Positions 2,531 through 22,350 of a stretch of DNA of 64,000 bases are shown piece after piece. This stretch comes from Sulfurospirillum multivorans DSM 12446 (GTDB lineage Bacteria > Campylobacterota > Campylobacteria > Campylobacterales > Sulfurospirillaceae), in the NCBI RefSeq assembly GCF_000568815.1, contig NZ_CP007201.1:1745654-1809653 (forward strand), in the 5' to 3' direction. The notes beneath the pieces are model-generated. The model was not told where the DNA came from. It made no database searches and saw only the letters and a program-made list of their open reading frames with translations. Position numbers and translations under genes: made by a program. Position 1 is the first letter of the stretch; the number at the start of each line of letters is the position of its first letter.

Positions 2531-2630
2531 AATAAGCCTCCTAAGACTCTATTAAAAAGACAATAGGAAATCCTTACGGAAGTCCTAAAACCTTTTCAGG
2601 TTAAACTCCGCAAGGAGATACTGTATTTTA
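2531..2630 (-). promoter_or_regulatory. Structured 5' leader (family member 1)
   Basis: Read on the minus strand it has four alternating C-rich and G-rich blocks (TCTCC, GGAG, CTTCC, GGA), an inner AACCT/AGGTT hairpin, and ends at the AGGAGG ribosome site of the gene at 1784-2530. It is more diverged than the other members. Regulatory action is inferred. Confidence 0.45.
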
Positions 2631-2636
2631 CGTTAC

Positions 2637-4949
2637 CTAGAAAAGGCTCAATTGAATTGGTCCATTGTCTTGTACCATTAACTGAATTTCAGCTCTTGTT
2701 ACATCAATCGCTTCATCAAAATACATTTTGCCTCTTCTCACACGTTTATAAATGGTGATTTTTTCATCCTCATCTATTAACGTGATTGGTAATGGATTTG
2801 TTTTTCTCTTTTTCGGAACTGCTGAAGGTTTTAATTCAAGAGGCTCATCAACGTCTTTTGCTTTCACTTTTGCATTTTTCTGCATTATTTCTTGGAGTTC
2901 AAGGTACAAGCTCTCAAACGCATCCCATTCTCTAGGAACAAAAGTCCATTTTGTAGTCTCTATATTGTCATTACCTCCCATAGCACCACTCGATATTGCT
3001 TTGGCAAGTTGCATCTGCAAAGAGGTACTTGCTTCTTCTAATCCAGCAAGATCGCCACCTAATGATAAGCGTCCTTCTAAACTATTGGCTGCTGCAACTT
3101 TCTTGGAAATCAAGGAAAGAGCCTTTCGTTGTGCCGTATTTTTATACGCCATAAAAATGACCCACACGTTATTTGTTTGACCAATTCTCCAACTTCTCCT
3201 AGCCGCTTGCTTCAACGTAAAAACGTTGTAAGTCGTCTGATAAAAGATAATGGTTGGATATTCAAGTAGATCCAAACCAGTCTTAACCAATTCGGGATTA
3301 CAAATCAAAACATCGCAAGGATTATCTTTGATCCATTTCTCTCTTTTAGAGGCTTCAACTGAACTTGGAAGGCATTTAATAACGAACCCTTTCAATCTCT
3401 CACTGAGCAATGTTTGTAATCGCTTAGAAACACCAAGATTTGTGTAAGTTGCAAACACAAGGCACTTACGCCCTTTTTTTAGTTCATCTCTTACCTTGTT
3501 AATAAGTGCTTTTTCTTTTGCCGTGATGAAGCTTTCATCCACTGGCGCTTTATAGAATGATTGACCAAAGTTAGGCGCAAAGTCCATAAATGGTAAATCA
3601 CATACACTTATCGCATCATTTGCAAGAGCACCAAGTACCCTTTTATCTTCTCTAACTTCCTTCGCTATATCGCTAAGGTAGTTTTGATATGTACTAAGCC
3701 ACTCTTTATCAGGTTCTACCAATTCAACGCTCTCTTCATAATCAGGTAACTCGATATTCATCTCGTCTAACCTTAAAAAGATTGTGAATGGTAAAAGCAA
3801 TGTCAAAAGATAAGGGCTAATACGTGGTATTTCTTTCATGGAAACTTTTGCACCTTTTTTTGTAACAACCCCCTCCGTGTTTGACTCTTTTGCGTCGTAA
3901 ATTTCCTCACGGGCACCGTAGAGTTCAACAAACCTCTCAACATCTTTATATTGAAGTTTCAAGGTTTCTTTCATTAAGCGAGGGTTTAAACGATAAAGGA
4001 TGTAGAATAAACTACTTGCATAGCCATTAAGAAGTGTACCGGTTAAGCCCACACACTTTTTTGACATTGAAGCAATAGCACCAAAAGCATTTCCTTGTCC
4101 AGTATCACCGCCTTTTAATTCATGGAGTTCATCCAAGAATAAAATATCGATCCAACCTTTTGGGAACTGCTTTTTGATGTATTCTGCAACAGATAGGCGA
4201 GTATTTGATGATTTATTTTTATCCACTTGTCTCAAAACAGAACCACAATCACATACGCGCTGGATATCAGGAGTATGATATTTAAAAGGTGACTCATCAA
4301 GAATACATCCACAATCAGGGCATGTGTATTGATAAGAGAGTACCTTTTCCTCATTCTCGTTAACAATCAATCGCTTACGCATATTATATGTGGCACGTTT
4401 TGGGTAAGAGAGCTTCGCAGTCTCTTTAGATAGGATAAAAAAGTATGTTTTATTTTCAAGTGCGCGTAGATGATAGCCAGCCAAATCGTCCCATCGTTTT
4501 ACGATAACAATTTGATATGGAATAGCAGCTTTATCCTTTTTGCCTAATGTCACTTCTATCTCCGAAGCCCACTTAGAAACTAGGTGAGATGGACACATGA
4601 TAAAAGTTTTAAACGGTTTGATTGGATTTTTGTTAAAGCCTTGGCAAGCCAACGTAATGAGATAAGCAATGCTGATCCCCGATATTGTCTTTCCTGTGCC
4701 CATCTCTGCGCTAATAATGAGTGAGTCATTCTTTTTTAAGTGTTCACTGCTGGCCGCAATTAGCCTAGCTTGTCTTGGAAATGGAGCTCTCTTTAATTGT
4801 AGAAGCGATCTCATCTGACCTTCATACTTTTTTGGGTTCTCTACTCCTTTGAATTTTGGCTGAACAATTCGGCTAATCGCTCCTGAGAGCACACTAGCTT
4901 TATTTTTCACCAAATCTGCGAAGCTTGCAGTGACAATGCTACTGCTCAT
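2637..4949 (-). CDS. SNF2/DEAD-box type helicase with zinc-binding insertion
   Basis: A superfamily 2 ATPase of about 770 residues. It has Walker A AEMGTGKT near residue 87, motif II DELH, motif III-like GLTGTL, and motif VI QAARRSWRIGQ near residue 590. A four-cysteine insertion (CPDC ... CDCG) at about residues 208-240 probably binds zinc. The last five residues are QLSLF, an exact match to the sliding-clamp binding pentapeptide. I start it at the internal ATG at 4949, which follows AAGGAGAAAATT, because the longer frame runs into the structured leader. A role in replication or recombination of the element is inferred. Confidence 0.85.
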   Translation of the reverse strand: MSSSIVTASFADLVKNKASVLSGAISRIVQPKFKGVENPKKYEGQMRSLLQLKRAPFPRQARLIAASSEHLKKNDSLIISAEMGTGKTISGISIAYLITLACQGFNKNPIKPFKTFIMCPSHLVSKWASEIEVTLGKKDKAAIPYQIVIVKRWDDLAGYHLRALENKTYFFILSKETAKLSYPKRATYNMRKRLIVNENEEKVLSYQYTCPDCGCILDESPFKYHTPDIQRVCDCGSVLRQVDKNKSSNTRLSVAEYIKKQFPKGWIDILFLDELHELKGGDTGQGNAFGAIASMSKKCVGLTGTLLNGYASSLFYILYRLNPRLMKETLKLQYKDVERFVELYGAREEIYDAKESNTEGVVTKKGAKVSMKEIPRISPYLLTLLLPFTIFLRLDEMNIELPDYEESVELVEPDKEWLSTYQNYLSDIAKEVREDKRVLGALANDAISVCDLPFMDFAPNFGQSFYKAPVDESFITAKEKALINKVRDELKKGRKCLVFATYTNLGVSKRLQTLLSERLKGFVIKCLPSSVEASKREKWIKDNPCDVLICNPELVKTGLDLLEYPTIIFYQTTYNVFTLKQAARRSWRIGQTNNVWVIFMAYKNTAQRKALSLISKKVAAANSLEGRLSLGGDLAGLEEASTSLQMQLAKAISSGAMGGNDNIETTKWTFVPREWDAFESLYLELQEIMQKNAKVKAKDVDEPLELKPSAVPKKRKTNPLPITLIDEDEKITIYKRVRRGKMYFDEAIDVTRAEIQLMVQDNGPIQLSLF

Positions 4950-4966
4950 AATTTTCTCCTTCATTT

Positions 4967-5036
4967 GAAAGAGGACAAACCTATCCCTCAAGGGGATAAA
5001 TTAAATCCCCTTTTGGGTTAGGCTCTTAATGAGCAA
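4967..5036 (-). promoter_or_regulatory. Structured 5' leader (family member 2)
   Basis: On the minus strand: a small GCTC/GAGC hairpin, then CCTAACCC, AAAA, GGGGAT, an AT-rich loop, ATCCCC, TTGA, GGGATAGG and GTCCTC, then the ribosome site of the helicase gene. CCC/GGG blocks can pair nested (1-4 and 2-3) or as two hairpins (1-2 and 3-4). A 73-base stretch (4967-5039) recurs without mismatch at 17599-17671. Confidence 0.7.
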
Positions 5037-5402
5037 CTAATTGTTTTTGAATATTTTTTCCACTTGATCACGGCTAATACCATAATCTTCGAGAGCTTCA
5101 ACTGCATCACTAATGTCACCGGTATAGTAACACTCGTAATTTCCAAGCTCTCGTTTAATGATTACATCAATACCATTCTCAGCAATATCTTGTTTTATGC
5201 CATTTTGATAAATTTCATCAAGGCTTTTCATAACAACTTCAACATGCTCTTTTGGAACAATCATTCCAGCACCGACATCAACATATGTAACGCCTTCTTT
5301 TCTAGCTGTTAAAAACTGTTCTTGACTGAAAGCGAAAAATACGCCGTATTGGTCAAACAATGCACTCTGTTTGTCATTCATGTAGTCTGATAAATATTTC
5401 AT
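5037..5402 (-). CDS. Hypothetical acidic protein (121 aa)
   Basis: Not recognised with confidence. It is soluble and acidic, with no membrane segment or cysteine cluster. The C-terminal half (VIIKRELGNYECYYTG ... AVEALEDYGIS) looks like a compact alpha/beta fold. The start follows AAAGGAGAACACA and its own structured leader. The stop codon lies inside the repeated 73-base segment shared with 17599-17671. Confidence 0.6.
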   Translation of the reverse strand: MKYLSDYMNDKQSALFDQYGVFFAFSQEQFLTARKEGVTYVDVGAGMIVPKEHVEVVMKSLDEIYQNGIKQDIAENGIDVIIKRELGNYECYYTGDISDAVEALEDYGISRDQVEKIFKNN

Positions 5403-5480
5403 TGTGTTCTCCTTTAGAACAAGAAGGACATAGCTATCCCAGAGGGATAATTATGTCCCTCGTGGGTTAGCTTTTTGCAA
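5403..5480 (-). promoter_or_regulatory. Structured 5' leader (family member 3)
   Basis: Minus-strand order: AGTTGC, GCTAACCC, ACGA, GGGACAT, ATCCC, TCT, GGGATAGCTATGTCCTT, then AAAGGAG. TCCTT can pair with the Shine-Dalgarno AAGGA, while GTTCT/AGAAC forms an alternative hairpin that leaves AAAGG in its loop. Confidence 0.7.
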
Positions 5481-5484
5481 CTAT

Positions 5485-5685
5485 TTAATGACACAAACGC
5501 TCAAAGCTTTTTAGCGCCTTTTCGTAAGTATCATATTTTTCTTCTATGTCACTTGGAGTGCCGTCCGTCCATTCAATGGTAACCTCCCAATAAAATGTGC
5601 CATCTTCAGATGAGACATAATCAAGAGCAACATTAAATGAACCACACTCTTTATATTTTTGATTTTCGCGTTCAGAATTTGCCAT
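5485..5685 (-). CDS. Small hypothetical protein (66 aa)
   Basis: A small charged protein of unknown function (MANSERENQKYKECG...). I take the internal ATG at 5685, preceded by TAGGAGACCAT, instead of an upstream ATG inside the preceding gene. It starts nine bases after that gene's stop and is the last gene of a four-gene group that begins at the leader near 7600. Confidence 0.55.
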   Translation of the reverse strand: MANSERENQKYKECGSFNVALDYVSSEDGTFYWEVTIEWTDGTPSDIEEKYDTYEKALKSFERLCH

Positions 5686-5693
5686 ATGGTCTC

Positions 5694-7297: not shown

Positions 7298-7307
7298 ATC
7301 CTACTCC

Positions 7308-7559: not shown

Positions 7560-7640
7560 GATTTCCTCCTTTGGGAAAGGGCATACCTCTCCCAACAAGG
7601 GAGAGATAGCCAAGTGGCTAAAACTCCCTTATGGAGTTAA
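7560..7640 (-). promoter_or_regulatory. Structured 5' leader (family member 4)
   Basis: Minus-strand order: AACTCC, ATAA, GGGAG, a TAGCCACTTGGCTA hairpin, CTCCC, TTGTT, GGGAGAGGTATGCCC, then AAAGGAGG. Almost identical to the leader of the lipoprotein gene at 17900-17985. CCTTT/AAAGG can cover the Shine-Dalgarno sequence. Confidence 0.7.
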
Positions 7641-7647
7641 ACTTTTT

Positions 7648-8451
7648 TTATGCTGCTAAGAAGTCAAATAAGTCCAATTGCTTTGGTTTTTGAGGACCAA
7701 ACAACTCATAGGCTCTTTCCAACGCTTGGTCGAACGTTAACTTGTAAACGTATACACTTTGATTGTCATAACTTTCCACTTCCATTCCATCGATACTTCG
7801 ATTGAGTTGTACTCGAAGTTGAATTAGTTGCCTAACTGTTAGGACAATGCCTTTTCTGCCAGCAAACAAATCATAAGAAGTGGAAAAACCATCAATGGAA
7901 TAACCAGAGCCGCCTCCATTACCTAACTTGGCATGTGCAAGCGCTTTAGACTTAAATTCATTAAAGCTTTTGGCTTTTTTGATTTCTTCCACTGGATCGA
8001 ATGACGTTTCATCTTTCCTATATGCTCGCGCAAAAAGGTTTTCTAAGCTTCTACGCAAGACATCATCATCGCTGATGACTTCTTTATACTCGATATGGAA
8101 ATAGTCTCTTAGCCAAGAAATAAATTCCTCATCATAGAGCTCATATTCAGGCAGTTCATCACTTCTCAGCCACGACGAACCTTGAATCTTTCCACCGTCA
8201 AACCAAAAACGATAATCTGTTTTTGTTTCGAGCTCCCAGAATGAATACGAATTGTCAGTAGATACGTGAAAGCATCTAGTGTATGGAACGAGATATAATC
8301 GAATGAGATGCTTAACTCTAGCAATTATTTCAAAATCGCTTAAAGCACCATCACGCGTCATATATTTAGTACTATCGTCCCACCAAAACTCTTCAAATCT
8401 ACCATGACCTTCTTCGGAGGTTGAACCTTTGACAATCGCATCTTTATATGG
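7648..8451 (-). CDS. Exon 2 of intron-split hypothetical gene
   Basis: The 3' part (about 267 codons) of a host gene interrupted by a group II intron. The open frame extends upstream to 8523, but its first 24 codons are intron domains V and VI, so that ATG is not a real start. Joined in frame to exon 1 (11141-11803) it gives a protein of about 488 residues of unknown function. The C-terminus is QLDLFDFLAA, containing a Q-L-D-L-F sliding-clamp pentapeptide. The exact 3' splice position is uncertain by a few codons. Confidence 0.75.
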   Translation of the reverse strand, partial: PYKDAIVKGSTSEEGHGRFEEFWWDDSTKYMTRDGALSDFEIIARVKHLIRLYLVPYTRCFHVSTDNSYSFWELETKTDYRFWFDGGKIQGSSWLRSDELPEYELYDEEFISWLRDYFHIEYKEVISDDDVLRRSLENLFARAYRKDETSFDPVEEIKKAKSFNEFKSKALAHAKLGNGGGSGYSIDGFSTSYDLFAGRKGIVLTVRQLIQLRVQLNRSIDGMEVESYDNQSVYVYKLTFDQALERAYELFGPQKPKQLDLFDFLAA

Positions 8452-11140
8452 ATAGGTAATCCTTTGAGATAATCTCCAGATTTTCCCCCCATTCACACCG
8501 TGCATGCGACTTTCACCGCACACGGCGTTCCACCAGTGTATTAACCTTTCTAACTGTAACCTAATAACATCATAAGAAAATCCCTAAGCTATCAATTGAT
8601 TCCCTGCAAGAACTCTAAGCTTGTTTACTCTTTCGAGTTGTCCAGCATTGAGCTCTAAAAGATTGGTAAACCTATTTATTGTTTCGTTATCCGTAGCATG
8701 AATCAGTCTATGCACATTTGCATGTAAAATGACTAAATTCTTGTATTCATCCTTACCATTTAAAGCACGAGGCTTTTTGTGGTGACAATGAATTTCATCT
8801 ACATCTAATGTATTACCTAATACATAACATTTTCCATATTGTCCGACATAGAGCGATATCCGATTATCGTTATATTCAGCAGATTGACCTTTTGCGGGAT
8901 TGGCTACTAAGTATTTCAGATTTTCAATTGGTACTGCTTTTTGTTCAGTGTGGATTTGTTCTCTATCGTTTGCTTTATATATCGAGTAGCCTCGATAATT
9001 GAGCTGTGTTTGATGTTGAACATATCCTATGGGGATAAGAGGAGTGTCATAAACAAACCGAAGCTGTTTACTCTTTCCGTACATATCCTTTATGTATTTT
9101 GGTATAGGTTCTTTCTCTTTTGCTTTGCGTGGTTTCAATCTATTCTTAAGGATTGAACGAGTACGATAGGCGATTGCACTAAAGTCGAGATTGCAGTTAG
9201 TGGCACAATTGTAATAATTGTGTACGCCGATGATATAGGAGTTCAGGCGCATGACTGCGCTTTTCCCTGAATCTTTCGGTTTCTGCACAGCCTTTGCGTG
9301 TTCTCTCATGGTTAGTAGAATCTTTTTAAAAGCTTTTAAGCCTATATGAGATTTTACAACCCATTTATTATCGTTTTTATTCTTTACTTTACCCTTTGTG
9401 GTGACTTTGAGTTTGATGCCTAAGAAGTCTGAATAGCTTTTCCGAAGATTGACTATCTTTGACTTTTCAGGGCTTATTTCAAGTCCTAGCCTTTCTTTGA
9501 GCCATAGTTTAGTAGCTTCAAAGATACGTTTTGCGTGATTATGGTTCCGACAGAAGAGTTTGAAATCGTCGGCATATCTTACGATATAGACCTCTTTGAG
9601 ATTGGATTGTTTGATAGCTTCAATCTTATGTGTTTGAGCTTGTCTTCCTGTATGTGTGGATTTTGTTTTCATATTAACCCATTGACTTGCTATCCAGTGG
9701 TCAAACTCATTAAGAGCGACGTTTGCTAACAGGGGTGATATGATACCACCTTGGGGAGTTCCTTTCTCTGGAGTTCCAATTCCTTCAATTTCTGCCTTTA
9801 GGAGTTTGGAGATGATAGCAATTAATGCTTTATCCCTTATTCCTAGTGTCCATAATTGTTTAAGTAGTTTACCGTGGTCAATATTGTCAAAGAAACCTTT
9901 GATATCAACGTCTACGACGTAGTGTAGGTTGTTTTTATGTGCTAAGTGATACGCTCTGGCTATGGCGTGTTTCGTTCCTCTTAGAGGTCTGAAACCATAA
10001 CTGTGCTTATAGAACTTTGCTTCACAAATTGGCTCTAACACTTGAAGTATACATTGTTGGACTAACCTATCACTAATGGTAGGTATGCCTAAAGGTCTCA
10101 TTTTTCCATCTGGCTTTGGTATTTCTACTCTGCGTACCGCTTGGGGTTGGTAATTTTTTAATTTCGCTTCAACAAACTTAACGAGATCATCGGGCTCCAT
10201 TCTTGCTAAATAAGCAATCGTTTTACCGTCCGTTCCCTTGGTATTACTTCCTGTATTTTTCTTGATGTTTCGATATGCTAATAAGACATTGTCCCTATCG
10301 GTGATTTTACTCATCAGATTGGTAAATATCTTGTCATTAAGGCTATCAGCATACAATTGATCTTGAACAACTTGGAAGTCATAATATTCGTTGTTGCGTA
10401 ATGTTTGTCGCTTTGGGTTCTCTATGATTTTACTCAAAGTCGGCTCCTTTCATTGCTGAATTTCGCCTCTCTTAGTCATACTCGAACCTTTGATGTTGGT
10501 TATAGTTGGTACTTGTGTTAGTACAATGACTAAAGCCCTTTGCTCCACTTCCATTATAGAAGCTTCATCGCTCATGGCTTCACTTTCACGTTGATTAAAG
10601 AACTTTAATACCTTACGGATTTATCTGTTCTAACGTTTCACTGATCGTTAAATCTCCACGTTCAACGCTTACCTTGTTCCAATAATTCTATCTGTACATA
10701 TTCCTTTAGGTGTTTCCTATGAGCCTGCAAGCTTGATATCGCCTTTAGCGGTATATGGAGTTTCATGCTTGTAATTCTTACTTTTCCACACTTACCCTAT
10801 TGCTAGGATATACATTTCTGTATATTTTGAGTTTAGACCCTTACATTCGGAAATTCGTCAGTGCCTTAGCACATTCTCACCATGAGAATTTTATAGACCC
10901 CCGACCTATCAGATACTCGACCACCTCTGATTCGCTTTTCCACAGCATTACCTGTTTGGGTATCCTCTCAGTCGTCTTCACCGAGCTTTAGACAGTTTTG
11001 CTTTTAACGAAGCTTGCCGCCTATCGGAGTATTAGGGAGAGCATTTCAAGGCGTTACCCTGTCATTCTACTCTTCAAATTATTAGTTTAACCCCGTGAAT
11101 ACGAGGTTAGAACAACTTTTCACTGTTCAACAAGTCGCAC
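8452..11140 (-). mobile_element. Group II intron with reverse transcriptase
   Basis: The intron begins with GTGCGAC (minus strand, at 11140-11134). Domain V is visible at about 8494-8528 as a 34-base hairpin with GCCGTG/CACGGT ends and a GTGAAAGT apical region, followed by domain VI and a 3' end near ACCTAT. EBS1 candidate TACAAGC (10767-10773) is an exact 7-base complement of the last seven exon bases GCTTGTA (11141-11147). Bases 10438-11140 hold the ribozyme domain I-III region. All parts look intact, so splicing and mobility are plausible. Confidence 0.9.
8584..10437 (-). CDS. ltrA: Group II intron reverse transcriptase/maturase with HNH domain
   Basis: A 617-residue intron-encoded protein. 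Reverse transcriptase blocks include RPLGIPT, TPQGGIISPLLANV and the catalytic YADDFKLF near residue 290; a maturase domain follows, and the C-terminus is an HNH nuclease (HCHHKKPRALNG ... LVILHANVHRLIH) near residues 560-600. It assists splicing and supplies target-primed reverse transcription. The start is a TTG at 10437, supported by AAAGGAG six bases upstream. No frameshift is seen, so the protein is probably functional. Confidence 0.93.
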   Translation of the reverse strand: MSKIIENPKRQTLRNNEYYDFQVVQDQLYADSLNDKIFTNLMSKITDRDNVLLAYRNIKKNTGSNTKGTDGKTIAYLARMEPDDLVKFVEAKLKNYQPQAVRRVEIPKPDGKMRPLGIPTISDRLVQQCILQVLEPICEAKFYKHSYGFRPLRGTKHAIARAYHLAHKNNLHYVVDVDIKGFFDNIDHGKLLKQLWTLGIRDKALIAIISKLLKAEIEGIGTPEKGTPQGGIISPLLANVALNEFDHWIASQWVNMKTKSTHTGRQAQTHKIEAIKQSNLKEVYIVRYADDFKLFCRNHNHAKRIFEATKLWLKERLGLEISPEKSKIVNLRKSYSDFLGIKLKVTTKGKVKNKNDNKWVVKSHIGLKAFKKILLTMREHAKAVQKPKDSGKSAVMRLNSYIIGVHNYYNCATNCNLDFSAIAYRTRSILKNRLKPRKAKEKEPIPKYIKDMYGKSKQLRFVYDTPLIPIGYVQHQTQLNYRGYSIYKANDREQIHTEQKAVPIENLKYLVANPAKGQSAEYNDNRISLYVGQYGKCYVLGNTLDVDEIHCHHKKPRALNGKDEYKNLVILHANVHRLIHATDNETINRFTNLLELNAGQLERVNKLRVLAGNQLIA

Positions 11141-11803
11141 TACAAGCTCAATCATCTCGGCATTATTCTTAGGAAGTTGGCTGATCCAACTTTTGACAAC
11201 ACATGGATCATGATATGCGTACCACGAGTTCGCAACGTCACACAATTCAAAAAAAGTGTATCGTTTTCTTAAATTGCTTTTTCTGACTCTTTCCAACTCC
11301 CGATGATATTTGCTCCAACTTCCTTCACTTCCAGCACTTGGCGACTCAGGTTCGGGTTCAAACTCATCATCTGAGCCATCAGCAAACAGAGATAATTGCT
11401 TGTTTTCTGATTTTTCAAAATTTTTGAGCAGATCCACCCATTCAAGGATTTTTTTGCAAACACCCTCGATGTATTCCTCGTCGCTATGTCCAGCATGTGA
11501 ATTATGATTTTTGAAAGGGATTTTGACTTGCAACCATACAATCCAATCATAATTGGTCCTATTCGCCTTATCTCTAAGGGTAAGAACATTACAAAATTCT
11601 GTACGCTCAAGCAAAACTTCATCAAAATGCTTTTTCAAACCCTCTAGGCTCGTTAACGACACCTTTTTGGATTTTGCACATGACGGCAAATCACATTCTT
11701 CATCTTCATTAAATTCTTCGTCCTCAAAGTCCTCTTCAAGCTCATCTTCATCAAAGTATTCTTCGTCTTCAATAAACTCTTCAGGATCTTCAATATATTC
11801 CAT
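11141..11803 (-). CDS. Exon 1 of intron-split hypothetical gene
   Basis: The first 221 codons of the split gene. The N-terminal 40 residues are almost entirely Asp and Glu. QLSLF at residues 136-140 matches the sliding-clamp pentapeptide exactly and sits beside an acidic Pro/Glu/Ser linker. Reading through the splice site would add only VRLVEQ before a stop inside the intron (11120), giving a truncated protein if unspliced. The start follows AGAGGAGGCAACAAG. Confidence 0.75.
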
Positions 11804-12498: not shown

Positions 12499-12678
12499 TC
12501 ACTTTCCTCGCTTATATGGTTTAATCAGCTCTCTAATTGCAAACACTGGAGACAATGCAAACATAGTCAGCATCTTCCAAGCACTTAATGCCTTTAAAGA
12601 GTTTTTATTGAAACAAACCATACTCGCGGAAAGCAAGATGGCAACTGTAAGATATATTCCGATAATCCACTCAAACAT
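12499..12678 (-). CDS. Small membrane protein (59 aa)
   Basis: One or two hydrophobic segments (WIIGIYLTVAILLSASMVC and a second near LTMFALSPVFAI) with a basic C-terminus. I start at the ATG at 12678, preceded by GGAAAGGA, which overlaps the stop of the upstream gene by eight bases. Function unknown. Confidence 0.5.
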   Translation of the reverse strand: MFEWIIGIYLTVAILLSASMVCFNKNSLKALSAWKMLTMFALSPVFAIRELIKPYKRGK

Positions 12679-12907
12679 TCGCTGATCCTTTCCAACAAGT
12701 AATAAGCTCTCCACCATTAAGTCCCAACTTTTGAATAACAACCGTAATGCCGTATAGAGGGTGAGTGTATTTCAACTTTTCTCCTGGTACTGCTTTAGTG
12801 ATTGCTTTTTCGATGGTTTTTTCTAACAGTGGAAGATCTTCTTGCGAGAAGCGCTGAATCATGCGCTCATTGAAGTGGATAGTGAATTTTTTGATTAAAT
12901 GTAACAT
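12671..12907 (-). CDS. Small hypothetical protein (78 aa)
   Basis: Not recognised. The N-terminal FTIHFNERMIQRF followed by a short alpha/beta pattern faintly recalls RelE/ParE or DUF4258-type folds, but no antitoxin partner is evident. AAAGGAGGGCGAC precedes the ATG. First gene of a three-gene group ending with the HD hydrolase. Confidence 0.5.
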   Translation of the reverse strand: MLHLIKKFTIHFNERMIQRFSQEDLPLLEKTIEKAITKAVPGEKLKYTHPLYGITVVIQKLGLNGGELITCWKGSANV

Positions 12908-12985
12908 GTCGCCCTCCTTTGAGCAACCATAGGGCTACCCAAAAGGGGAGCCGTAATTTAACGACTCCCTATGGAGCGACAGTTA
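12908..12985 (-). promoter_or_regulatory. Structured 5' leader (family member 6)
   Basis: Minus-strand order: GTCGCTCC, ATA, GGGAG, an AT-rich loop, GGCTCCCC, TTTT, GGGTAGCCCT, then AAAGGAGGGCGAC and ATG. GCCCT pairs with the Shine-Dalgarno AGGGC, replacing GTCCTC/GAGGAC in member 8, a compensatory change. The 5' GTCGC also matches GCGAC beside the start. Confidence 0.7.
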
Positions 12986-12992
12986 TAATGAT

Positions 12993-13604
12993 TTATGCAA
13001 CGAGAAGATAAGGCATCTCTCTATCGAGAAATGTTTCTCGTGTCATAAGTGTTTGTTTCATTTGAGTGTCTTGCTGTTTTTTGTATTCTTTAATAAGCTC
13101 ATAAAAATTGTGCACAAATGGAAGATTCATATCAAAGTCACTAGACTTATCTAAGAATTTTTTGACTCCATTATGAACATATGACAAGCTCACTATTTCA
13201 TACTGACAAGAAGCATATGTTCGTATAGACACACTATATTTAAGACCATTGTCAAAATCATATGTTTGTGTCGAATCGATTATTCGTTCAAGCAATTGAG
13301 GCTCTCCAGTAGGACTTTCTTCAGCATTTGTCCACTCATCTGTGACTTTTTCTTGAGTGTCAACATGAATGATTTTTGTTGCAGGTGTCCACCAGTGAAG
13401 ATTGCGCGCTTTGATCTTATACTCAAAAGAGTATTTATCATCTTGAAATTTGCTTCGCGTACTGATGATAAAATCTTTAACAGCCTGAATGCTGTCAAAG
13501 ACTCTGTACCCATAGTCATAAAAGACAGGATAAGCACCAATATTTGACCAAAAATCCTCATCGTCTAATGTATCAATTTCGTATCCTAAGAAATAGTATT
13601 TCAC
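12993..13604 (-). CDS. Hypothetical protein (203 aa)
   Basis: Not recognised; soluble, with many aromatic residues (NIGAYPVFYDYGYRVFDS near residue 20) and no cysteine cluster or membrane segment. It has its own structured leader and GAAGGAGGGCAAAATTGTGAAA spacing that makes the ATG at 13604 somewhat distant from the ribosome site; the GTG at 13607 is an alternative. Confidence 0.55.
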   Translation of the reverse strand: MKYYFLGYEIDTLDDEDFWSNIGAYPVFYDYGYRVFDSIQAVKDFIISTRSKFQDDKYSFEYKIKARNLHWWTPATKIIHVDTQEKVTDEWTNAEESPTGEPQLLERIIDSTQTYDFDNGLKYSVSIRTYASCQYEIVSLSYVHNGVKKFLDKSSDFDMNLPFVHNFYELIKEYKKQQDTQMKQTLMTRETFLDREMPYLLVA

Positions 13605-13695
13605 AATTTTGCCCTCCTTCGAGCGTAAGCATAAGAATACCTAGCCCTTTCGGGAGGCAATCTTCGCTTAAAAGACTGGCTCCCATTGGGAGAAA
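13605..13695 (-). promoter_or_regulatory. Structured 5' leader (family member 7)
   Basis: Minus-strand order: CTCCC, AAT, GGGAGCC, a longer inner hairpin arm (AGTCTT/AAGATT), CCTCCC, GAAA, GGGCTAGGTATT, then GAAGGAGG. Same four-block layout as members 2-6. Confidence 0.65.
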
Positions 13696-13701
13696 CAAAT
13701 T

Positions 13702-13923
13702 TTATCTATAGCAAATGACACCATTTCCTTTTAGTACCCTAATATCTTCCATGATAAGGTTTCGCTTGTCAATAAACTTTTTGGCATCTTCCAATGTATC
13801 AAAAGTCATAATACGATATTTAGGGGGAACGTATAGGTTGGTCCACAAGAAAATAAATTCTCTTCTTTGTGGAATGAATTTGCCATTTTTTTTGATTATT
13901 CGGTATTGAGGTAATCTAAGCAT
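13702..13923 (-). CDS. Small basic hypothetical protein (73 aa)
   Basis: Basic, aromatic-rich protein (RREFIFLWTNLYVPPKYR) of unknown function. Its ATG overlaps the end of 13916-14146, suggesting coupling. Confidence 0.5.
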   Translation of the reverse strand: MLRLPQYRIIKKNGKFIPQRREFIFLWTNLYVPPKYRIMTFDTLEDAKKFIDKRNLIMEDIRVLKGNGVICYR

Positions 13924-14146
13924 TAGCTAGCTCTTCTTGTGGTTGAAATTCAACTTTTAGAGGACAATTTGGCTCACCGTCTTGTGTCATTGAATGGAGT
14001 ACACCATCAACATCAACGATTTCAACTGGCTTGTTCTTCCAATCAATTTCATAAACATTACGGCCCCATTCGTCTTCAAAAACGAATTTAGCAGTCAAAC
14101 CGCCTTTGAGTTGTAAATCAATTTGTGGTAATTCTTTACGTGCCAT
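13916..14146 (-). CDS. Small hypothetical protein (76 aa)
   Basis: Unknown function; a beta-rich pattern (LKGGLTAKFVFEDEWGRNVY). GGAGG lies eight bases upstream of the ATG, within a hairpin-forming leader. Confidence 0.5.
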   Translation of the reverse strand: MARKELPQIDLQLKGGLTAKFVFEDEWGRNVYEIDWKNKPVEIVDVDGVLHSMTQDGEPNCPLKVEFQPQEELANA

Positions 14147-14225
14147 TTTCTAGTCCTCCGCGACTAAAGTTAAGAGGACATACCTACCCTACAGGAGGAT
14201 AAAATATATCCCCAAGAGGGTAAGC
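14147..14225 (-). promoter_or_regulatory. Structured 5' leader (family member 8)
   Basis: Minus-strand order: GTTGCTAATAGC, TTACCC, TCTT, GGGGAT, ATCCTCC, TGTA, GGGTAGGTATGTCCTC. GTCCTC is the exact complement of GAGGAC containing the Shine-Dalgarno sequence; TAGTC/GACTA forms a competing hairpin with GCGGAG in its loop. The clearest switch-like member. Confidence 0.7.
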
Positions 14226-14249
14226 TATTAGCAACATTTTTGACAATAG

Positions 14250-14417: not shown

Positions 14418-14540
14418 TTATAGATTTGGTTTATGCGTATGGTGCTTTCGCTTTTTAATATCGTTTCCCAACTTTGTGAGAAACAAAACTGCAACAAAGC
14501 CTAAAATGCTCATGGTTAAAACAATCATTGATCCACTCAT
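14418..14540 (-). CDS. Small membrane protein (40 aa)
   Basis: ATG at 14540 preceded by AAGGAGAAGCAG, overlapping the TGA of the upstream gene (ATGA). The product has one hydrophobic segment (MIVLTMSILGFVAVLFL) and a basic, His-rich tail. The ribosome site and coupling favour it over the 63-residue frame that overlaps it. Confidence 0.55.
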   Translation of the reverse strand: MSGSMIVLTMSILGFVAVLFLTKLGNDIKKRKHHTHKPNL

Positions 14541-14812
14541 CTGCTTCTCCTTTTGTAACGTATTGTTCCAAAAATTATAGCTAAAGAGAAAAAGCCTGTC
14601 AATGAAATTGTTGTTGAATCAGTTTTTGAGTCATTAATAAGGCTATACACAGTATTTACAAAAAGCCCCAATCCAAAATCTTTTAGCAGATCCATAAAAT
14701 CTGCAACATCGTCCTCTGTAATTTTTTGTGCCATATCTTCATATCCACCAAGATAGAGATACAAAAGAAAAACAAGCACCAATGACATTATTACTACAAA
14801 TAATGCTGCCAT
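14537..14812 (-). CDS. Small membrane protein (91 aa)
   Basis: Two predicted membrane segments (FVVIMSLVLVFLLYLYL at the N-terminus and SLTGFFSLAIIFG near the C-terminus), a negatively charged central part and a KRRSR tail. AGGAGAGTGAGAAT precedes the start. Cotranscribed with primase upstream. Function unknown. Confidence 0.55.
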   Translation of the reverse strand: MAALFVVIMSLVLVFLLYLYLGGYEDMAQKITEDDVADFMDLLKDFGLGLFVNTVYSLINDSKTDSTTISLTGFFSLAIIFGTIRYKRRSR

Positions 14813-16464: not shown

Positions 16465-16467
16465 AAG

Positions 16468-16710
16468 TTAAGAGAGAATAGCTATCGTTCCACCTAACAA
16501 CAATACTCCACTTATGACAAGCACAAGGAGCACAATTATTACAGCTTGATAGACCAATAGCCTTGTAGTATTGTCCTCTCTTTCTAATACATCCATGTAG
16601 AATTCTGACATTACGATCACCGTAATCATGTATGGAAAAAGACCACCTTTAGCAAGAACAGCTAAAGGAACCAATAAACCCCAAAAAAGAGTTTTTAGTT
16701 TTGCTTTCAT
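16468..16710 (-). CDS. Small membrane protein (80 aa)
   Basis: Two or three hydrophobic stretches (LFWGLLVPLAVLA, YMITVIVMSEF, AVIIVLLVLVISGVLLLGG). GGAGGGAAAAGACG precedes the start, which overlaps the upstream stop (ATGA). Function unknown. Confidence 0.5.
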   Translation of the reverse strand: MKAKLKTLFWGLLVPLAVLAKGGLFPYMITVIVMSEFYMDVLEREDNTTRLLVYQAVIIVLLVLVISGVLLLGGTIAILS

Positions 16711-16949
16711 CGTCTTTTCCCTCCCGTCTCTTTTTTGGCAATTTTCGAAAGATAATCGAAATCTTTTTTTGCCTTATGAGAATTGTCATGTTGGTATTCA
16801 ATCGGCTCTTCATCTTGCTCGATATAATGAACCACGAAGTTCTGTTCTCTTTGGCATACCCCAACGGGGAATAGCATTTGAGTCAGAATCACTTTGATTT
16901 TTTTGCCAAAACTGATCTCTTGGATTACAGTTTCGCCGATATGTAACAT
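16707..16949 (-). CDS. Small hypothetical protein (80 aa)
   Basis: Soluble, with a basic lysine-rich C-terminal tail. Not recognised. Preceded by GCAAGGAGTAAAGC and a structured leader; the downstream membrane protein is translationally coupled to it. Confidence 0.5.
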   Translation of the reverse strand: MLHIGETVIQEISFGKKIKVILTQMLFPVGVCQREQNFVVHYIEQDEEPIEYQHDNSHKAKKDFDYLSKIAKKETGGKRR

Positions 16950-17036
16950 GCTTTACTCCTTGCATATTTTAAACACAAAGAGCTCCCTTGCGAGGGCTTT
17001 TCGTGTTTCAGAAAAACCCTCTTTAGGGCAACATTA
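16950..17036 (-). promoter_or_regulatory. Structured 5' leader (family member 9)
   Basis: Minus-strand order: GTTGCCCT, AAAG, AGGG, AAACAC, GCCCTC, GCAA, GGGAGC, GTGTTT, then GCAAGGAG. AAACAC pairs with GTGTTT around the CCCTC/GGGAG hairpin. Confidence 0.6.
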
Positions 17037-17040
17037 AGAT

Positions 17041-17280
17041 TTATGAAGCAATTTTATTTTTGATGACCTCTTCAACGCGAGTAGTAGTACTACAACTCTT
17101 TAATAGAGCAACATGACCCTCTTTCATAGCTTTTGCTAATCCTAAGTGCCATGCGTGCTTTTTGTCAAGTGCTGCTGGCACAACAATTTCTTGTTGAACT
17201 ACTGACCCTTCCTCTATGACAAATTTATACGCTTTCCACTCCTTCTGAAACATCCGAAGTGTTTGTGCGCCATTTTTCAT
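17041..17280 (-). CDS. Small hypothetical protein (79 aa)
   Basis: Basic, soluble, not recognised. The start overlaps the stop of the secreted protein upstream (TTATGA), so expression is likely coupled. Confidence 0.45.
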   Translation of the reverse strand: MKNGAQTLRMFQKEWKAYKFVIEEGSVVQQEIVVPAALDKKHAWHLGLAKAMKEGHVALLKSCSTTTRVEEVIKNKIAS

Positions 17281-17465
17281 AAGGTACCACCAAATTTTGA
17301 ACTTTGAGCAATCGCTATATGGTCAATTTGATAGAAGTAGCTTAGTTCCATTTGGTTTTTTTTCTCAAATTCTTTTTTTATTACATCGATAGACTCTTTT
17401 GCTTGTAGAAAACTCCAACCAAAAAATCCCGCGATTAACATTGCAATAATTAGAAAACTTTTCAT
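17277..17465 (-). CDS. Small secreted or membrane-anchored protein (62 aa)
   Basis: An N-terminal hydrophobic segment (FLIIAMLIAGFFGWSFL) is followed by a charged tail. AAAGGATATACG precedes the ATG. Between it and the lipoprotein gene lie 203 bases carrying an orphan copy of leader 2. Confidence 0.45.
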   Translation of the reverse strand: MKSFLIIAMLIAGFFGWSFLQAKESIDVIKKEFEKKNQMELSYFYQIDHIAIAQSSKFGGTL

Positions 17466-17598
17466 CGTATATCCTTTTTCATAGGCACCGCACTACTCCA
17501 ATAACAATCAAATTACTTGACATAATCCCTATCTTTTCAGGCATGTTGTTCTATATGATTTTTAGTGTTTTTTGAAGTGGTGTAGAGGTGTTTTTATA

Positions 17599-17671
17599 GA
17601 AAGAGGACAAACCTATCCCTCAAGGGGATAAATTAAATCCCCTTTTGGGTTAGGCTCTTAATGAGCAACTA
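17599..17671 (-). repeat. Orphan 73-bp duplicate of leader 2
   Basis: Identical, base for base, to 4967-5039, including the TAG stop codon at its 5' end (minus strand). Here the repeat ends at CTCTTTC and no ribosome site or gene follows for about 130 bases, so the gene that belonged to it seems to have been lost or replaced. Confidence 0.85.
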
Positions 17672-17899
17672 TTTAGCTATGTTTTCAACAATACGAATAG
17701 GTAACGTAAGAACATACGCACCAGCAAATACAGCAGCGCCTGCTGCTTGTCCAGCCGCATAACCTACGTCTGACTCAGAAGCATTAGCTTGAACTTCTTT
17801 GGCAGGTACGGTTTCATTCGGCGTATAAACTCGTGTTACCTTTGTTGTGCAACCAGTCAATAATAACGCAATTGCAAACAACATAAACAAACTTTTCAT
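17669..17899 (-). CDS. Small lipoprotein (76 aa)
   Basis: Signal peptide with lipobox (LFAIALLLTGC) at residues 7-17, then a short linker and a glycine-zipper-like hydrophobic region (AAGQAAGAAVFAGAYVL). Start at 17899 after AAAGGAGGGAACCC. Possibly an entry-exclusion or envelope protein; this is only a guess from its size and location. Confidence 0.6.
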   Translation of the reverse strand: MKSLFMLFAIALLLTGCTTKVTRVYTPNETVPAKEVQANASESDVGYAAGQAAGAAVFAGAYVLTLPIRIVENIAK

Positions 17900-17985
17900 G
17901 GGTTCCCTCCTTTGGGAAAGGGCATACCTCTCCCATAAGGGTGAGATAGCCAAATGGCTAAAACTCCCTTATGGAGTTAAACTTT
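17900..17985 (-). promoter_or_regulatory. Structured 5' leader (family member 11)
   Basis: Near-identical to leader 4 at 7560-7640 over about 80 bases, with matched differences around CTCACCC/GGGAGAGG. Ends at AAAGGAGGG before the lipoprotein start. Confidence 0.7.
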
Positions 17986-18008
17986 TTTACATGTAAGAAA
18001 TGAAACTC

Positions 18009-18497
18009 CTAAAAAGGAATTTCGTCATCATTAATATCCAAATCAGGAATATCATGTCCAGAATACTCAGGTTGATTGCCTTGTTGTTGACCTTGAGATT
18101 GGCGAGGTTGTGATGTTCTTGGCGCTTGATTGCCACCTTGTCCACCATTACCTTCATTGTTTGAACCATCCCTACCATCTAGCATTTGGAGTGTTTCAAC
18201 GGTGATAGAGTGCTTAGAGCGCTTTGCACCTTGTTGATCGGTCCACTGATCGAGTTTTAAACGACCTTCTACTAAAACCTTAGAGCCTCTCTTTAGGTAT
18301 TGATTAGCAATTTCTGCTGTTCGCCCAAAGAAAGTGATATCGATAAAACAAACCTCTTCGGCTTGGCTACCGTCCTGCTTTTTAAAGCGACGATTGGTCG
18401 CAAGTCCAGTGGTACAAACCGCGCCACCACTAGGGAGGTAACGAAGCTCGCAGTCACGTGTGAGGTTTCCAAGCATAATTACTTTGTTGAATTCCAT
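18009..18497 (-). CDS. ssb: Single-stranded DNA-binding protein
   Basis: A 162-residue SSB: OB-fold residues 1-110 ([20 protein letters not shown] ... [12 protein letters not shown]), a Gly/Gln-rich linker, and the acidic tip DINDDEIPF that recruits partner proteins. I start at 18497 after AAAGGAAATAAC. It protects single strands during replication and annealing and is grouped with the Bet and exonuclease genes upstream. Confidence 0.93.
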
Positions 18498-18516
18498 GTT
18501 ATTTCCTTTTTTTAAT

Positions 18517-18672
18517 TTAATCCACTGCTTTTCTAACTTCAGCAAAAGCGTAAATGTCACACTGACTGTTTAATGTATCAGCAAGTGCTTTTGCCTCTGA
18601 AAAAGAGAAAGTACCTTTAATTTCCTCACCACCATAAAAATAAGTGGTAACTACTTGGTATTCATTTTGCAT
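18517..18672 (-). CDS. Small hypothetical protein (51 aa)
   Basis: A short frame from ATG 18672, preceded by AAGGATTTAAC, to TAA 18517, ending 20 bases before the ssb start. The product ([15 protein letters not shown]...) is soluble with an alpha/beta pattern. Position between two genes of the same direction and a ribosome site support it. Confidence 0.5.
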
Positions 18673-18702
18673 GTTAAATCCTTGTTCTAAAAAAGTAGAT
18701 AC

Positions 18703-19644
18703 TTAGACTACTCTTAATGATAAGAAAGGTTTTCCATCCTTGCTAACGGCATTTGCGACTTCAGGATACTTTTTCTTCAGTAGATCTAAAGAAATACTAC
18801 TTTTGCCACTATTTTCATACATGATCGCATTATATTTTGTACCAATACCTTTTTTGATATTGGCCGCTTCCATAAATGCTTTTATATTCTCACGAAGAGC
18901 TTTTGCTTCTTTTTCTGCTGCCGATAATTCCTTTAATTTTGTGAGCATTGAATCAATCTCATCAGGGAGTTTTTCTGCATTATGAAGAAGTGTTGAGCAA
19001 CTACTTTTGTATTTGCAAGATCCACATAAATCACTTACCTCGCCTTCAGGCTCAGTTCTTGATTGTATAGCATTCCACAATTTTAATCCTCTTTGTTGAG
19101 CTTGATGAAGTAGAATCTCGGAAAATACAACAGGGAATTCATGCCTTTTTGCCGTATTAAGGTCAATGGCGGCAATAACACCTCTTGTTTTTCTTCCGGT
19201 GGATTCATTTGCAAGCCACATTTGAATATGGTTTTGATAAACCCAACTCAGTCGTGGTTTATCATCTGGAAGTGCTGTTCTAAAAGTTTTACCTTCTACT
19301 GCAACATCCTCCTGTGGAAAATTTACGTGTAAGTCAAGATGCGCTCTAAGAAAAGACCATTGATCTTTTCCTACGAATTCAACTTGTTTAGTGAACGTAA
19401 AAGCATCTTTCTTAGGACTATTTTCAAGACCTTTGATAAAAATACCTTCCGCGACATGACCACGCTCAAAGATTAGCAATTGCTCAAAGTCAAAATCTTC
19501 TTTATCAAACTTTGACAAATAGGATTTTTTTAAGCATTGTCCAATATCTGATGCACCAACATATGTTGAGCGATCACCTAATCCTGAATCTGCATTTCTT
19601 ATTCCTTCTTCGATTAAATCGTAAAAAGGTGTTGTACTTGACAT
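18703..19644 (-). CDS. RecB/Cas4-like PD-(D/E)XK exonuclease
   Basis: A 313-residue nuclease. Catalytic elements are RAHLDLH (Asp) and VAVEGKT (E-x-K) at about residues 119-138. A cysteine in IGQCLKK near residue 33 plus three near residue 210 (DLCGSCKYKSSC) form the iron-sulfur cluster pattern of Cas4/AddB-type nucleases. It lies next to an annealing protein gene, so it probably makes the single strands that Bet anneals. GGAGG lies nine bases before the ATG. Confidence 0.8.
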   Translation of the reverse strand: MSSTTPFYDLIEEGIRNADSGLGDRSTYVGASDIGQCLKKSYLSKFDKEDFDFEQLLIFERGHVAEGIFIKGLENSPKKDAFTFTKQVEFVGKDQWSFLRAHLDLHVNFPQEDVAVEGKTFRTALPDDKPRLSWVYQNHIQMWLANESTGRKTRGVIAAIDLNTAKRHEFPVVFSEILLHQAQQRGLKLWNAIQSRTEPEGEVSDLCGSCKYKSSCSTLLHNAEKLPDEIDSMLTKLKELSAAEKEAKALRENIKAFMEAANIKKGIGTKYNAIMYENSGKSSISLDLLKKKYPEVANAVSKDGKPFLSLRVV

Positions 19645-19728
19645 TATGTGTTACCTCCAAGTATTACCTAAGAGGAAATACACAATCCCACAAGGGATAA
19701 AATGTATCCCTCTTAGGAAGTGTATTTA
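19645..19728 (-). promoter_or_regulatory. Structured 5' leader (family member 12)
   Basis: The outer stem is the longest in the family: AAATACAC pairs with GTGTATTT and TTCC with GGGA, around an inner GGGATA...TATCCC-type hairpin. CCTC then faces GGAGG at the ribosome site. Confidence 0.7.
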
Positions 19729-19732
19729 CAAA

Positions 19733-20905
19733 TTAAAACAAACTACCCTCTTCTCGTTTTGAACGACTATCTTGTTCTGTTTCAGGAGCTTTTTTAACAC
19801 CTTTTTCAACAATAGTGATTGTAGGCATATTTTTAATATGCGCCTGCTCAAATTTTTGAAGAAGATAACCTGCTAGTTTTTGTTCCTCAGACTCATCTGT
19901 CGTTACCTCAAATACCGCAGTGACCACATACGTTTTTTGATTGCCAGTTGGTTTTACCGAAGGCTGAACGTGTGCTGTTTGAGATATTGGAGCTTTTGCT
20001 ATGATGATTTCAGGTTGGGTGTTTGATTCAATTTGAACTGTTGTTGGTGTTTGTAATCTTTGTTGAGCTTCAAATTCTGCTTTCGCTTTCACTTCAGCTT
20101 CTTTTTTTGCTTTTTCTACGAGTTTTTGTTCCAATTCTCCAAAGCGTTTGATTTCGCTTTTGATCATTGACTGAAGCTTTTGTTGGTAGATTTCTTCATC
20201 ATCAACTTTTAAAAAGCTTTCAATGTTTTGTCTAACAAGTGGTGCCTCAAGGCCTGCTTTATAGCAAGTACCTTCAAGGGTATTGAGCCTAAGTTCAACT
20301 TTTTCTTGAAAGCGTTTGCACTCAAGCGCACGAGCTTCAACAGAACCTTTCGCTGCTGGTTTGATTCCTGAATTTGTCTTATTTGAGACAATTGCAAGAT
20401 CAGCGACTTTCGCTATTTGAAACTCTTCTTTAACATCGAATTTATGATACGCTGTTTTTAAAGCACTTTCTAAAAGAGATAAACACTCTTTTCGAGTACG
20501 TGCATTAAAAACTTCAATTTGATTCAACAGAAACGTGCGTTTTTCATCAATGAGACTAACAAGTTCTTTGCATTGAGCACCGAAAACATCAATTGGAGCA
20601 GATACAATCTTTACGGTATTTTTTCTGGTTTCATCAACTTTTTCAGAAAGCTGATTTAAGGTTGTTGCCATTTTTTTAGCAGCAGCCATATTTTCCAAGG
20701 TAACGGTTACTTCATACTCTTTCAATCCAGCCACAACATGCGCTTTGATTGTGTCGAAATTTGAAGCAATTTTAGGTAATTGTGTTTTAATATCAATCAT
20801 TGATATTAATTGTTCTGTAGTTATTGGTTGATCTTCAGCAACAACTTCTGATGGTGTAACCTCTTCATCATTCAATAAACTTCGAGTATTCTCTGAACTT
20901 GACAT
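19733..20905 (-). CDS. DUF1351 domain protein
   Basis: A 390-residue protein of the phage DUF1351 family: residues 70-250 are helical and charged (ENMAAAKKMATTLNQLSEKV ... FNARTRKECLSLLE). The C-terminal 150 residues hold a second domain (TYVVTAVFEVTTDESEEQKL). The family usually lies next to recT or bet and is thought to aid recombination, without a known activity. GAGGTCAAAA precedes the start. Confidence 0.75.
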   Translation of the reverse strand: MSSSENTRSLLNDEEVTPSEVVAEDQPITTEQLISMIDIKTQLPKIASNFDTIKAHVVAGLKEYEVTVTLENMAAAKKMATTLNQLSEKVDETRKNTVKIVSAPIDVFGAQCKELVSLIDEKRTFLLNQIEVFNARTRKECLSLLESALKTAYHKFDVKEEFQIAKVADLAIVSNKTNSGIKPAAKGSVEARALECKRFQEKVELRLNTLEGTCYKAGLEAPLVRQNIESFLKVDDEEIYQQKLQSMIKSEIKRFGELEQKLVEKAKKEAEVKAKAEFEAQQRLQTPTTVQIESNTQPEIIIAKAPISQTAHVQPSVKPTGNQKTYVVTAVFEVTTDESEEQKLAGYLLQKFEQAHIKNMPTITIVEKGVKKAPETEQDSRSKREEGSLF

Positions 20906-20996
20906 TTTTGACCTCTTTCTTTTTTCTTGAAGTCAAAAGGACATACTTTTCCCTATCAAAGGGAAGAATATATCCCTTTGACGGGTTTAATTATCA
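20906..20996 (-). promoter_or_regulatory. Structured 5' leader (family member 13)
   Basis: Minus-strand: AAACCC, then the hairpin TCAAAGGG/CCCTTTGA, then GGG and GTATGTCC. TTTTGAC can pair with GTCAAAA that overlaps the GAGG ribosome site. Confidence 0.65.
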
Positions 20997-21000
20997 GACA

Positions 21001-22182
21001 TTATTCACCAAAAGGATTTTTTTCATCGTCCTCATCAAGTGGTGGAATGCCTTCAAATAAAGCAGTTTGTGTAGGTTTTTCCTCTTTTGGAGGTAATGTA
21101 GGATTTAGAAACGCTTTGATTTGGTTCATCAAAGTTTCCCTATTATCAGGACTGATGATATCTTCGACTTTTTTCAAATCGCTTAAATCACCGAATGTTT
21201 TTTCGACAAATCTTCCAGCCTCTTCAGTCGTGATACCATTACCAAGTAACAGTTTCATCAAATCCGATTTTGGGCTTGTCTTTTTAGATGTTTTTTCTGG
21301 CTTAGTTGGTTTAGGAGCAATAGGCGTTTCTTCAATAGGCTTTGGCAAAATTTCAGCATCAAGCATATCGCTTTCTGTAACAGTGATCTTCCACACACCA
21401 TCATGATGGTTAAAACCAGTGGATTTTAATACTGCGGAATGCGCATAGGCCTTCTGGACTGTAATAGTGTCACCATTAATCGTATACTCAATCCCAAGCG
21501 AGCTAAGCGCGTCAATGACTTTCGCTTTATCTTTTTTCAATGACTGAATAGGTAAAGAAGCATTTTCGCCATCAAGGAATCCAGCATCAACTGACATAAG
21601 CCCATCAAGACCATAAACGGCATCAAGTAGCTGAAATTCTGCTACCTTCTCAACCATTACAGTAGGCATACCTTTCCAAAATTGTGTAACTTCACCTTTT
21701 TTAGTGGTTTGTTTGTAAACGCTGTATGCCGCCTCTTTACGAACTTTTTTGCCTTCGATTTCAAGCTCAGCCCAACCAACCAGATCTCTTTTCTCTTGCC
21801 ATTCACCCTCAGGATCAAGGTAAGGGAAAAGTTTAATAGTGTATCCAGTAGTAGGAGGAACAGTCATCCCTTTTCTTCTTGCGATAGTGCGCGCACCTCT
21901 TCGCCCAATCATAGGATCGTGTTTAGTCACCCATTGATCTGGTTGTCCATATTCAGCAATATTCTGCTTTCTTGGAACAAAATAGATCTCTTTAATGATC
22001 GGATTTAATTGTGCTTGCTTCGCAATTTCCAAACAATACATCAAATCTCCATCAGTGATTCCTGGTGCAATTTGAGTTTTGAGGATGCTCATTTGTTCTA
22101 TCGTGAGCGCTGCTGCACTAAATGGCGATCTTACAACCGCAACTTGAGCTTGTGTTCCATCATCTAATTGATTTTTTGACAT
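21001..22182 (-). CDS. bet: Phage recombination protein Bet (RecT family annealase)
   Basis: A 393-residue single-strand annealing protein. Bet/RecT signature region at residues 25-190: LTIEQMSILKTQIAPG, LNPIIKEIYFVPR, DPMIGRRGARTIARRKG, and MVEKVAEFQLLDAVYG. It anneals complementary strands exposed by the neighbouring exonuclease. The C-terminal extension after residue 190 includes QTALF, a clamp-like pentapeptide, and ends in an acidic tail (LDEDDEKNPFGE). Start at 22182 after AAAGGAGAAAAT; the longer frame covers a hairpin leader. Confidence 0.88.
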   Translation of the reverse strand: MSKNQLDDGTQAQVAVVRSPFSAAALTIEQMSILKTQIAPGITDGDLMYCLEIAKQAQLNPIIKEIYFVPRKQNIAEYGQPDQWVTKHDPMIGRRGARTIARRKGMTVPPTTGYTIKLFPYLDPEGEWQEKRDLVGWAELEIEGKKVRKEAAYSVYKQTTKKGEVTQFWKGMPTVMVEKVAEFQLLDAVYGLDGLMSVDAGFLDGENASLPIQSLKKDKAKVIDALSSLGIEYTINGDTITVQKAYAHSAVLKSTGFNHHDGVWKITVTESDMLDAEILPKPIEETPIAPKPTKPEKTSKKTSPKSDLMKLLLGNGITTEEAGRFVEKTFGDLSDLKKVEDIISPDNRETLMNQIKAFLNPTLPPKEEKPTQTALFEGIPPLDEDDEKNPFGE

Positions 22183-22350
22183 ATTTTCTCCTTTTTCGTT
22201 CCATTCAACCAATATGTCGATATTGAATAAAACGTGATTTTTTGGATTTTTAATGGCTCCATTAAACCGACAGGAGAAAACAGACAGAGGTATGGCTGGT
22301 AAGCCGATACAACTGAGATTGCTCTCATATCGGCTTAGTGCAGCCATTAA
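22183..22350 (-). promoter_or_regulatory. Leader of bet with long stacked hairpin
   Basis: Three stacked stems on one axis: ATGGCTG (22292-22298) with CAGCCAT (22341-22347), AAGCCGATA (22301-22309) with TATCGGCTT (22328-22336), and TGAGA/TCTCA around TTGC. The 21 paired bases make a strong RNA hairpin about 110 bases upstream of the start. Confidence 0.6.

Follow-up and report, generated by a model that had tools for sequence, protein, structure and literature searches.

In the leader of the MS2 maturation gene the ribosome site is hidden in the ground state and open in a nascent metastable state, and in the erm and cat translational attenuators a chain of complementary segments ends in the Shine-Dalgarno (SD) sequence, with a short leader peptide at a fixed distance. 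Control of SD access by successive, mutually exclusive hairpins has been described for the aapA type I toxin mRNAs of Helicobacter pylori, for which co-transcriptional folding was proposed and tested; the MS2 5' UTR is named there as a metastable example (PMC6733600). Structured non-coding elements also precede genes in the leading regions of conjugative elements (Frpo/ssi), Frpo being a DNA promoter with its -35/-10 in a stem (PMC11541004).

The leaders considered here, from a Sulfurospirillum multivorans mobile element (within the window, the whole 64,000-nucleotide stretch analyzed) and its relatives, are probably (at about 0.78) cis-acting RNA switches of a new family, which gate translation initiation of individual genes in a block of the recombination/establishment type, carried in Campylobacterales by F-type conjugative plasmids and integrated elements. 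Judged from sequence, their general kind is a bistable SD-sequestering RNA switch, with two exclusive covarying folds, one of which is predicted to pair the SD. This kind is already known, e.g. from the aapA mRNAs; as far as our tools tell, the leader family, its copy number and its conjugative link are new.

As in aapA, we are dealing with Campylobacterota mRNAs in which exclusive hairpins bear on SD access (PMC6733600). However, aapA couples a toxin ORF with an antisense RNA, and its full-length mRNA is inert until processed, whereas the leaders precede many unrelated genes, mostly no toxin, and under the model proposed below the transient and final states are opposite in sign. Judged on the downstream genes (helicase, exonuclease and RecT-type functions), the leaders are not type I toxin-antitoxin mRNAs of the hok or aapA type. 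The closed ground state and open nascent state recall MS2, which is a single phage gene as opposed to a multi-copy family across plasmids. The complementary-segment chain with the SD last is that of erm/cat, but the leaders have no leader peptide and the upstream ORF is inconsistently placed, which separates them from attenuators. With Frpo/ssi they share the position of structured non-coding elements preceding conjugative-element genes; they differ from Frpo in pairing the SD rather than carrying -35/-10 in a stem, as assessed with the sigma-70 consensus only.

The expectation that no named RNA family would fit was borne out. A search of Rfam (4227 families) at gathering and relaxed thresholds gave no leader match, the only matches above threshold being to group II introns. 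Literature on riboswitches in Sulfurospirillum, on non-coding RNAs of Campylobacterota ICEs, on pAMYT and on motif discovery, covered in part (and thus no proof of absence), had nothing on the leader element. Viral contigs contained no relative of the exonuclease; scanned for GGGATA..TATCCC..GGGATA they gave many matches, the inspected ones looking like enterobacterial phage operator palindromes and unlike the leader element.

Leaders and genes of the window

Thirteen elements on the minus strand (2531-22800) share the block order Y1-R1-Y2-R2-Y3-SD (C-rich, G-rich, C-rich, G-rich, UAUGUCCU, SD), in agreement with the original prediction of related structured leaders on this strand; four further leaders lie just outside the window. 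Covariance model R1 was trained on five window leaders and two copies from Sulfurospirillum sp. SCADC (G052), and model R2 on 19 matches of model R1. Model R2 scores 8 of the 13 at E <= 3e-4, several of the scoring copies being also training copies, while E1, E5, E6 and E8 were picked by eye from the same pairing logic, without a model match.

2531..2622 (core 2564-2622), minus: leader E1, before ORF 1784-2530; by eye and fold
4950..5036 (core 4971-5025), minus: leader E2, before SNF2-type helicase gene (ATG 4949); model R2, 59.6 bits
5403..5484 (core 5424-5474), minus: leader E3, before DUF7659 gene 5037-5402; model R2, 47.6 bits; two-state folds
7560..7647 (core 7577-7644), minus: leader E4, before small ORF (ATG 7559); model R2, 46.3 bits
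12908..12992 (core 12927-12982), minus: leader E5, before ORF 12671-12907; by eye and folds
13605..13701 (core 13632-13695), minus: leader E6, before ORF 12993-13604; by eye and folds
14147..14240 (core 14174-14228), minus: leader E7, before ORF 13916-14146; model R2, 52.1 bits
16950..17040 (core 16975-17035), minus: leader E8, before ORF 16707-16949; by eye and folds
17590..17668 (core 17603-17657, equal to the E2 core), minus: leader E9; model R2, 59.6 bits
17900..17985 (core 17918-17984), minus: leader E10, before lipoprotein-like ORF (ATG 17899); model R2, 37.5 bits
18703..19644, minus: recombination exonuclease; homologues mark related modules (that of G166 is RecE-like)
19645..19732 (core 19672-19726), minus: leader E11, before the exonuclease gene; model R2, 46.6 bits
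20906..21000 (core 20937-20992), minus: leader E12, before DUF1351 gene 19733-20905; model R2, 44.3 bits
21001..22182, minus: RecT-family annealing protein (Pfam PF03837), no leader directly before it
22720..22773, minus: weak element E13, within the long non-coding region that precedes recT; model R1, 12.2 bits, E 6.5

Across the 3.18-Mb Sulfurospirillum chromosome all 12 model R2 matches at E <= 0.02 sit within 25 kb (1743-1768 kb), two of them being antisense shadows; such weaker antisense-strand matches arise because the blocks are palindromic. The pairings quoted earlier are present before 14146 (GTCCTC/GAGGAC), 5402 (TCCTT/AAGGA) and 19644 (CCTC/GAGG and AATACAC/GTGTATT); at 12908-12985 the leader exists, its pairing being somewhat different from the one quoted. 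E9 has no adjacent start codon (the next is far downstream, ORF 17277-17465), nor has E13, which has a counterpart in G052 (L012:1213-1267). E2/E9 (4971-5025 and 17603-17657) and E4/E10 (7577-7644 and 17918-17984) are two pairs of identical or near-identical copies before unrelated downstream genes, a pattern that copying of leaders, alone or together with their genes, around the element would produce.

The block encodes RecT, DUF1351, exonuclease, SSB, primase-like and SNF2-helicase proteins. Control of the whole replication module, as originally proposed, is too strong a claim: about 12 of roughly 28 module genes in the window carry a leader, and SSB, RecT and primase do not. The distance from core to start codon has a median of 23 nt. 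Among 70 leaders from all genomes, 33 have an upstream ORF that stops within 45 nt of block R1; the stops are spread between -13 and -117, and 24 leaders have no ORF of at least 55 codons ending within 150 nt. A scan with the sigma-70 consensus only found no excess of promoters and none at leaders. Because most leaders are intercistronic and promoters are not in excess, the idea of one leader per transcription group had to be given up. Terminator-like sites number 24 against 12.3 expected, and some overlap E2, E5, E6, E8, E9 and E11.

Other features of this minus strand include a perfect TTGACA-17-TATAAT promoter-like match (14574-14602) inside ORF 14537-14812, and a 24-codon mini-ORF (MSSKKIKVEFNAFGIRVVIIIKLA, 22500-22574) in the long non-coding region before recT, kept in G052 (L012 ~1059-985). 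A group II intron with a reverse-transcriptase ORF (8584-10437) occupies 7648-11803, seemingly interrupting one gene: ORFs 7648-8523 and 11120-11803 match one protein family of ~440 aa, whose genes in other elements with leaders are continuous (e.g. L197:46473-47795).

Competing pairings of the leader blocks

Two folds were compared. State A combines Y1:R2, R1:Y2 and Y3:SD, hiding the ribosome site; state B consists of R1:Y3 enclosing Y2:R2, with an upstream hairpin P0, and leaves the site free. In a swap test the segments of 49 non-redundant leaders were cut by fixed windows, and the duplex energy of own partners was compared with that of partners exchanged within genomes. For each of the six predicted helices none of 5000 exchanges was as good (z -3.7 for P0, -5.5 for Y1:R2, -9.8 for R1:Y2, -5.1 for Y3:SD, -8.0 for R1:Y3 and -8.3 for Y2:R2), and eight non-predicted control pairings of the same leaders gave no signal (|z| <= 1.6); one control, R2:Y3, reached z -2.6 in the window genome (G000) alone. 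Relatedness by itself does not explain this result, because the control pairings have the same ancestry.

Under stricter de-duplication (n=16) R1:Y2, R1:Y3, Y2:R2 and Y3:SD stand, and P0 and Y1:R2 fade. A held-out set of 22 leaders, from genomes outside model building and window design, replicated R1:Y2 (z -7.4), Y3:SD (-4.4) and R1:Y3 (-6.0); in these 22 P0 was absent (z +0.2), and Y1:R2 and Y2:R2 were mere trends below significance. The search models contained the A1 and A2 pairs, and P0, Y3:SD, R1:Y3 and Y2:R2 were absent from them. Covariation was also counted over 72 distinct rows of an alignment fitted to state A. Cells with both sides changed exceeded the shuffled expectation for state A (158 vs 69, the A1 and A2 counts being partly ascertained because these pairs were in the search models), R1:Y3 (31 vs 13) and Y2:R2 (13 vs 4).

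Thus, the sequence comparisons show the helices R1:Y2, R1:Y3 and Y3:SD; Y1:R2, Y2:R2 and P0 are supported but not replicated. The core claim, that R1 chooses between Y2 and Y3, and Y3 between R1 and the SD, therefore draws on the helices that hold in the swap, de-duplicated and held-out tests. These data uphold the shared, covarying element with mutually exclusive pairings and the pairing of its last segment with the ribosome site. The alternative fold as first drawn, with Y1:R1 side by side, gave no swap-test signal and is replaced by R1:Y3 enclosing Y2:R2.

Candidate triggers of the proposed switch

In the predicted ground state A, R1 would lie on Y2, Y1 would close onto R2 and Y3 would cover the SD, turning the gene OFF; in state B, with R1 on Y3 and Y2 on R2, the unpaired SD would turn it ON. 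We infer these signs, as well as action of the switch in vivo and a trigger common to the leaders, from the pairings. Energies were computed with ViennaRNA, without pseudoknots or proteins. Of the 49 leaders, 39 favor state A (median -5.7 kcal/mol). For RNA ending at Y3 the two states appear to balance (median +0.5), and with the SD present state A wins. When X0 and Y1 are removed in silico, the balance returns and A is no longer preferred; masking Y1 lifts SD accessibility from 0.27 to 0.43, and masking Y3 likewise exposes the SD.

These calculations fit a leader that is open when young and closes with age. With the transcript grown no further than Y3, B roughly matches A in stability, and synthesis of the SD tips the balance to A, so fresh mRNA would be open to translation and aged mRNA shut off. 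Co-transcriptional folding (nascent mRNA ON, mature mRNA OFF) is thus the trigger that we favor, at somewhat below even odds. Our ranking of a folding timer before a trans-acting factor, coupling and a ligand, in this order, follows from the lack of a conserved loop, the nearness of upstream stops in many but not all cases and the lack of a shared regulator. Rather tentatively, one may imagine an RNA-only regulon on conjugative elements, in which each of dozens of genes would have a folding timer of its own, different in sequence but identical in logic, and would be translated only from fresh mRNA, e.g. when the element has just entered a new host.

A switch dependent on a protein or RNA is a credible alternative, albeit again short of probable: a factor encoded by the element would keep state A in the donor, and the leaders would open in a new host lacking it. 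A single family across many genes of one element would suit a common factor, and so would the in silico effect of losing X0 and Y1. On the other hand, no protein, RNA-binding regulators included, was found common to all leader blocks; the most widespread family, that of a primase-like protein, occurs in 6 of 9. As to a trans-acting RNA, the only candidate was one 8-mer complementary to the common Y1 sequence (GGGTTAGCC, ~22974, minus strand, in the non-coding stretch upstream), which is present in the window and in none of 5 other elements.

Translational coupling, by which a ribosome terminating on the upstream gene would cover Y1/P0 and open the next leader, appears unlikely. The stops near block R1 and the effect of masking Y1 agree with it, but the scatter of stop distances and the 24 leaders lacking an upstream ORF led us to reject it as a general rule.

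Still less probable is a small-molecule riboswitch, in which a metabolite bound by the four-block fold would set the SD state. Two exclusive SD-controlling folds kept across many genes would be expected of one, but we see no conserved unpaired aptamer: nearly every position of high information is a G or C within a helix, and the loops vary in length and sequence. Moreover, no Rfam riboswitch matches, and the genes are united by the mobile element that carries them rather than by a metabolic pathway. We hold an intrinsic terminator/antiterminator switch in place of translational control to be equally improbable. The surplus of terminator-like sites, some of them on leaders, speaks for it; against it, many leaders lack a U-rich stretch, which pairs with the A-rich SD side, and Y3:SD covaries. 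A DNA-level element (tandem repressor operators, or single-stranded DNA promoters of the Frpo type at conjugative entry) is the least probable: the CCC-N4-GGG palindromes do look like enterobacterial phage operators, and the hosts are conjugative elements, in whose leading regions Frpo promoters are found (PMC11541004), but promoter-like sites are not enriched, and within one genome the sequence varies yet R1:Y3 and Y3:SD pairing is kept, which would have no role in DNA operators.

Spread and link to conjugative elements

As the original prediction had advised, related elements were sought with covariance models, and the family turned up in other Campylobacterales (Campylobacter, Malaciobacter and others). 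Model R2 found it in 11 of 399 Campylobacterales genomes and in 15 of 397 genomes of a phylum sample. Carriers include the same-genus G052, the Malaciobacter mytili plasmid pAMYT, Campylobacter upsaliensis plasmid 2, and C. coli pCC001 and pT6SS_BCH-10307. The leaders always cluster on one strand in recombination/replication blocks (RecT/Bet, exonuclease, SSB, primase). On pAMYT ~25 of them cover 52 kb, and the other 118 kb, tra genes included, have none.

F-type conjugation genes are linked to the leaders wherever the assembly shows the region (draft genomes cannot show the link). The distance from TraG_N to the leaders is 73 kb in the window genome (which has three TraG_N copies), 13 kb in G052, ~50 kb in G027 and 36 kb in G166; in G165 both are on one plasmid.

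Overall, the family appears not to have been described before, and its two competing folds are strongly supported. It reaches up to ~25 copies per mobile element and has Campylobacter plasmids among its carriers; within one genome, its sequence-diverged copies amount to a set of natural mutants for studying the logic of RNA switches. Should the leaders time recombination and establishment genes, they would be a post-transcriptional counterpart of the control that acts on transcription in conjugative leading regions.

Tandem leader pairs before a single gene were observed at L229:9299-9435 and 10331-10468, and also in L222 and L225. A contig of 3 kb whose title gives an alphaproteobacterial MAG (L050, SAAU01000013.1) carries a leader and a close exonuclease homologue (73%), and is perhaps a mis-binned Campylobacterota contig.
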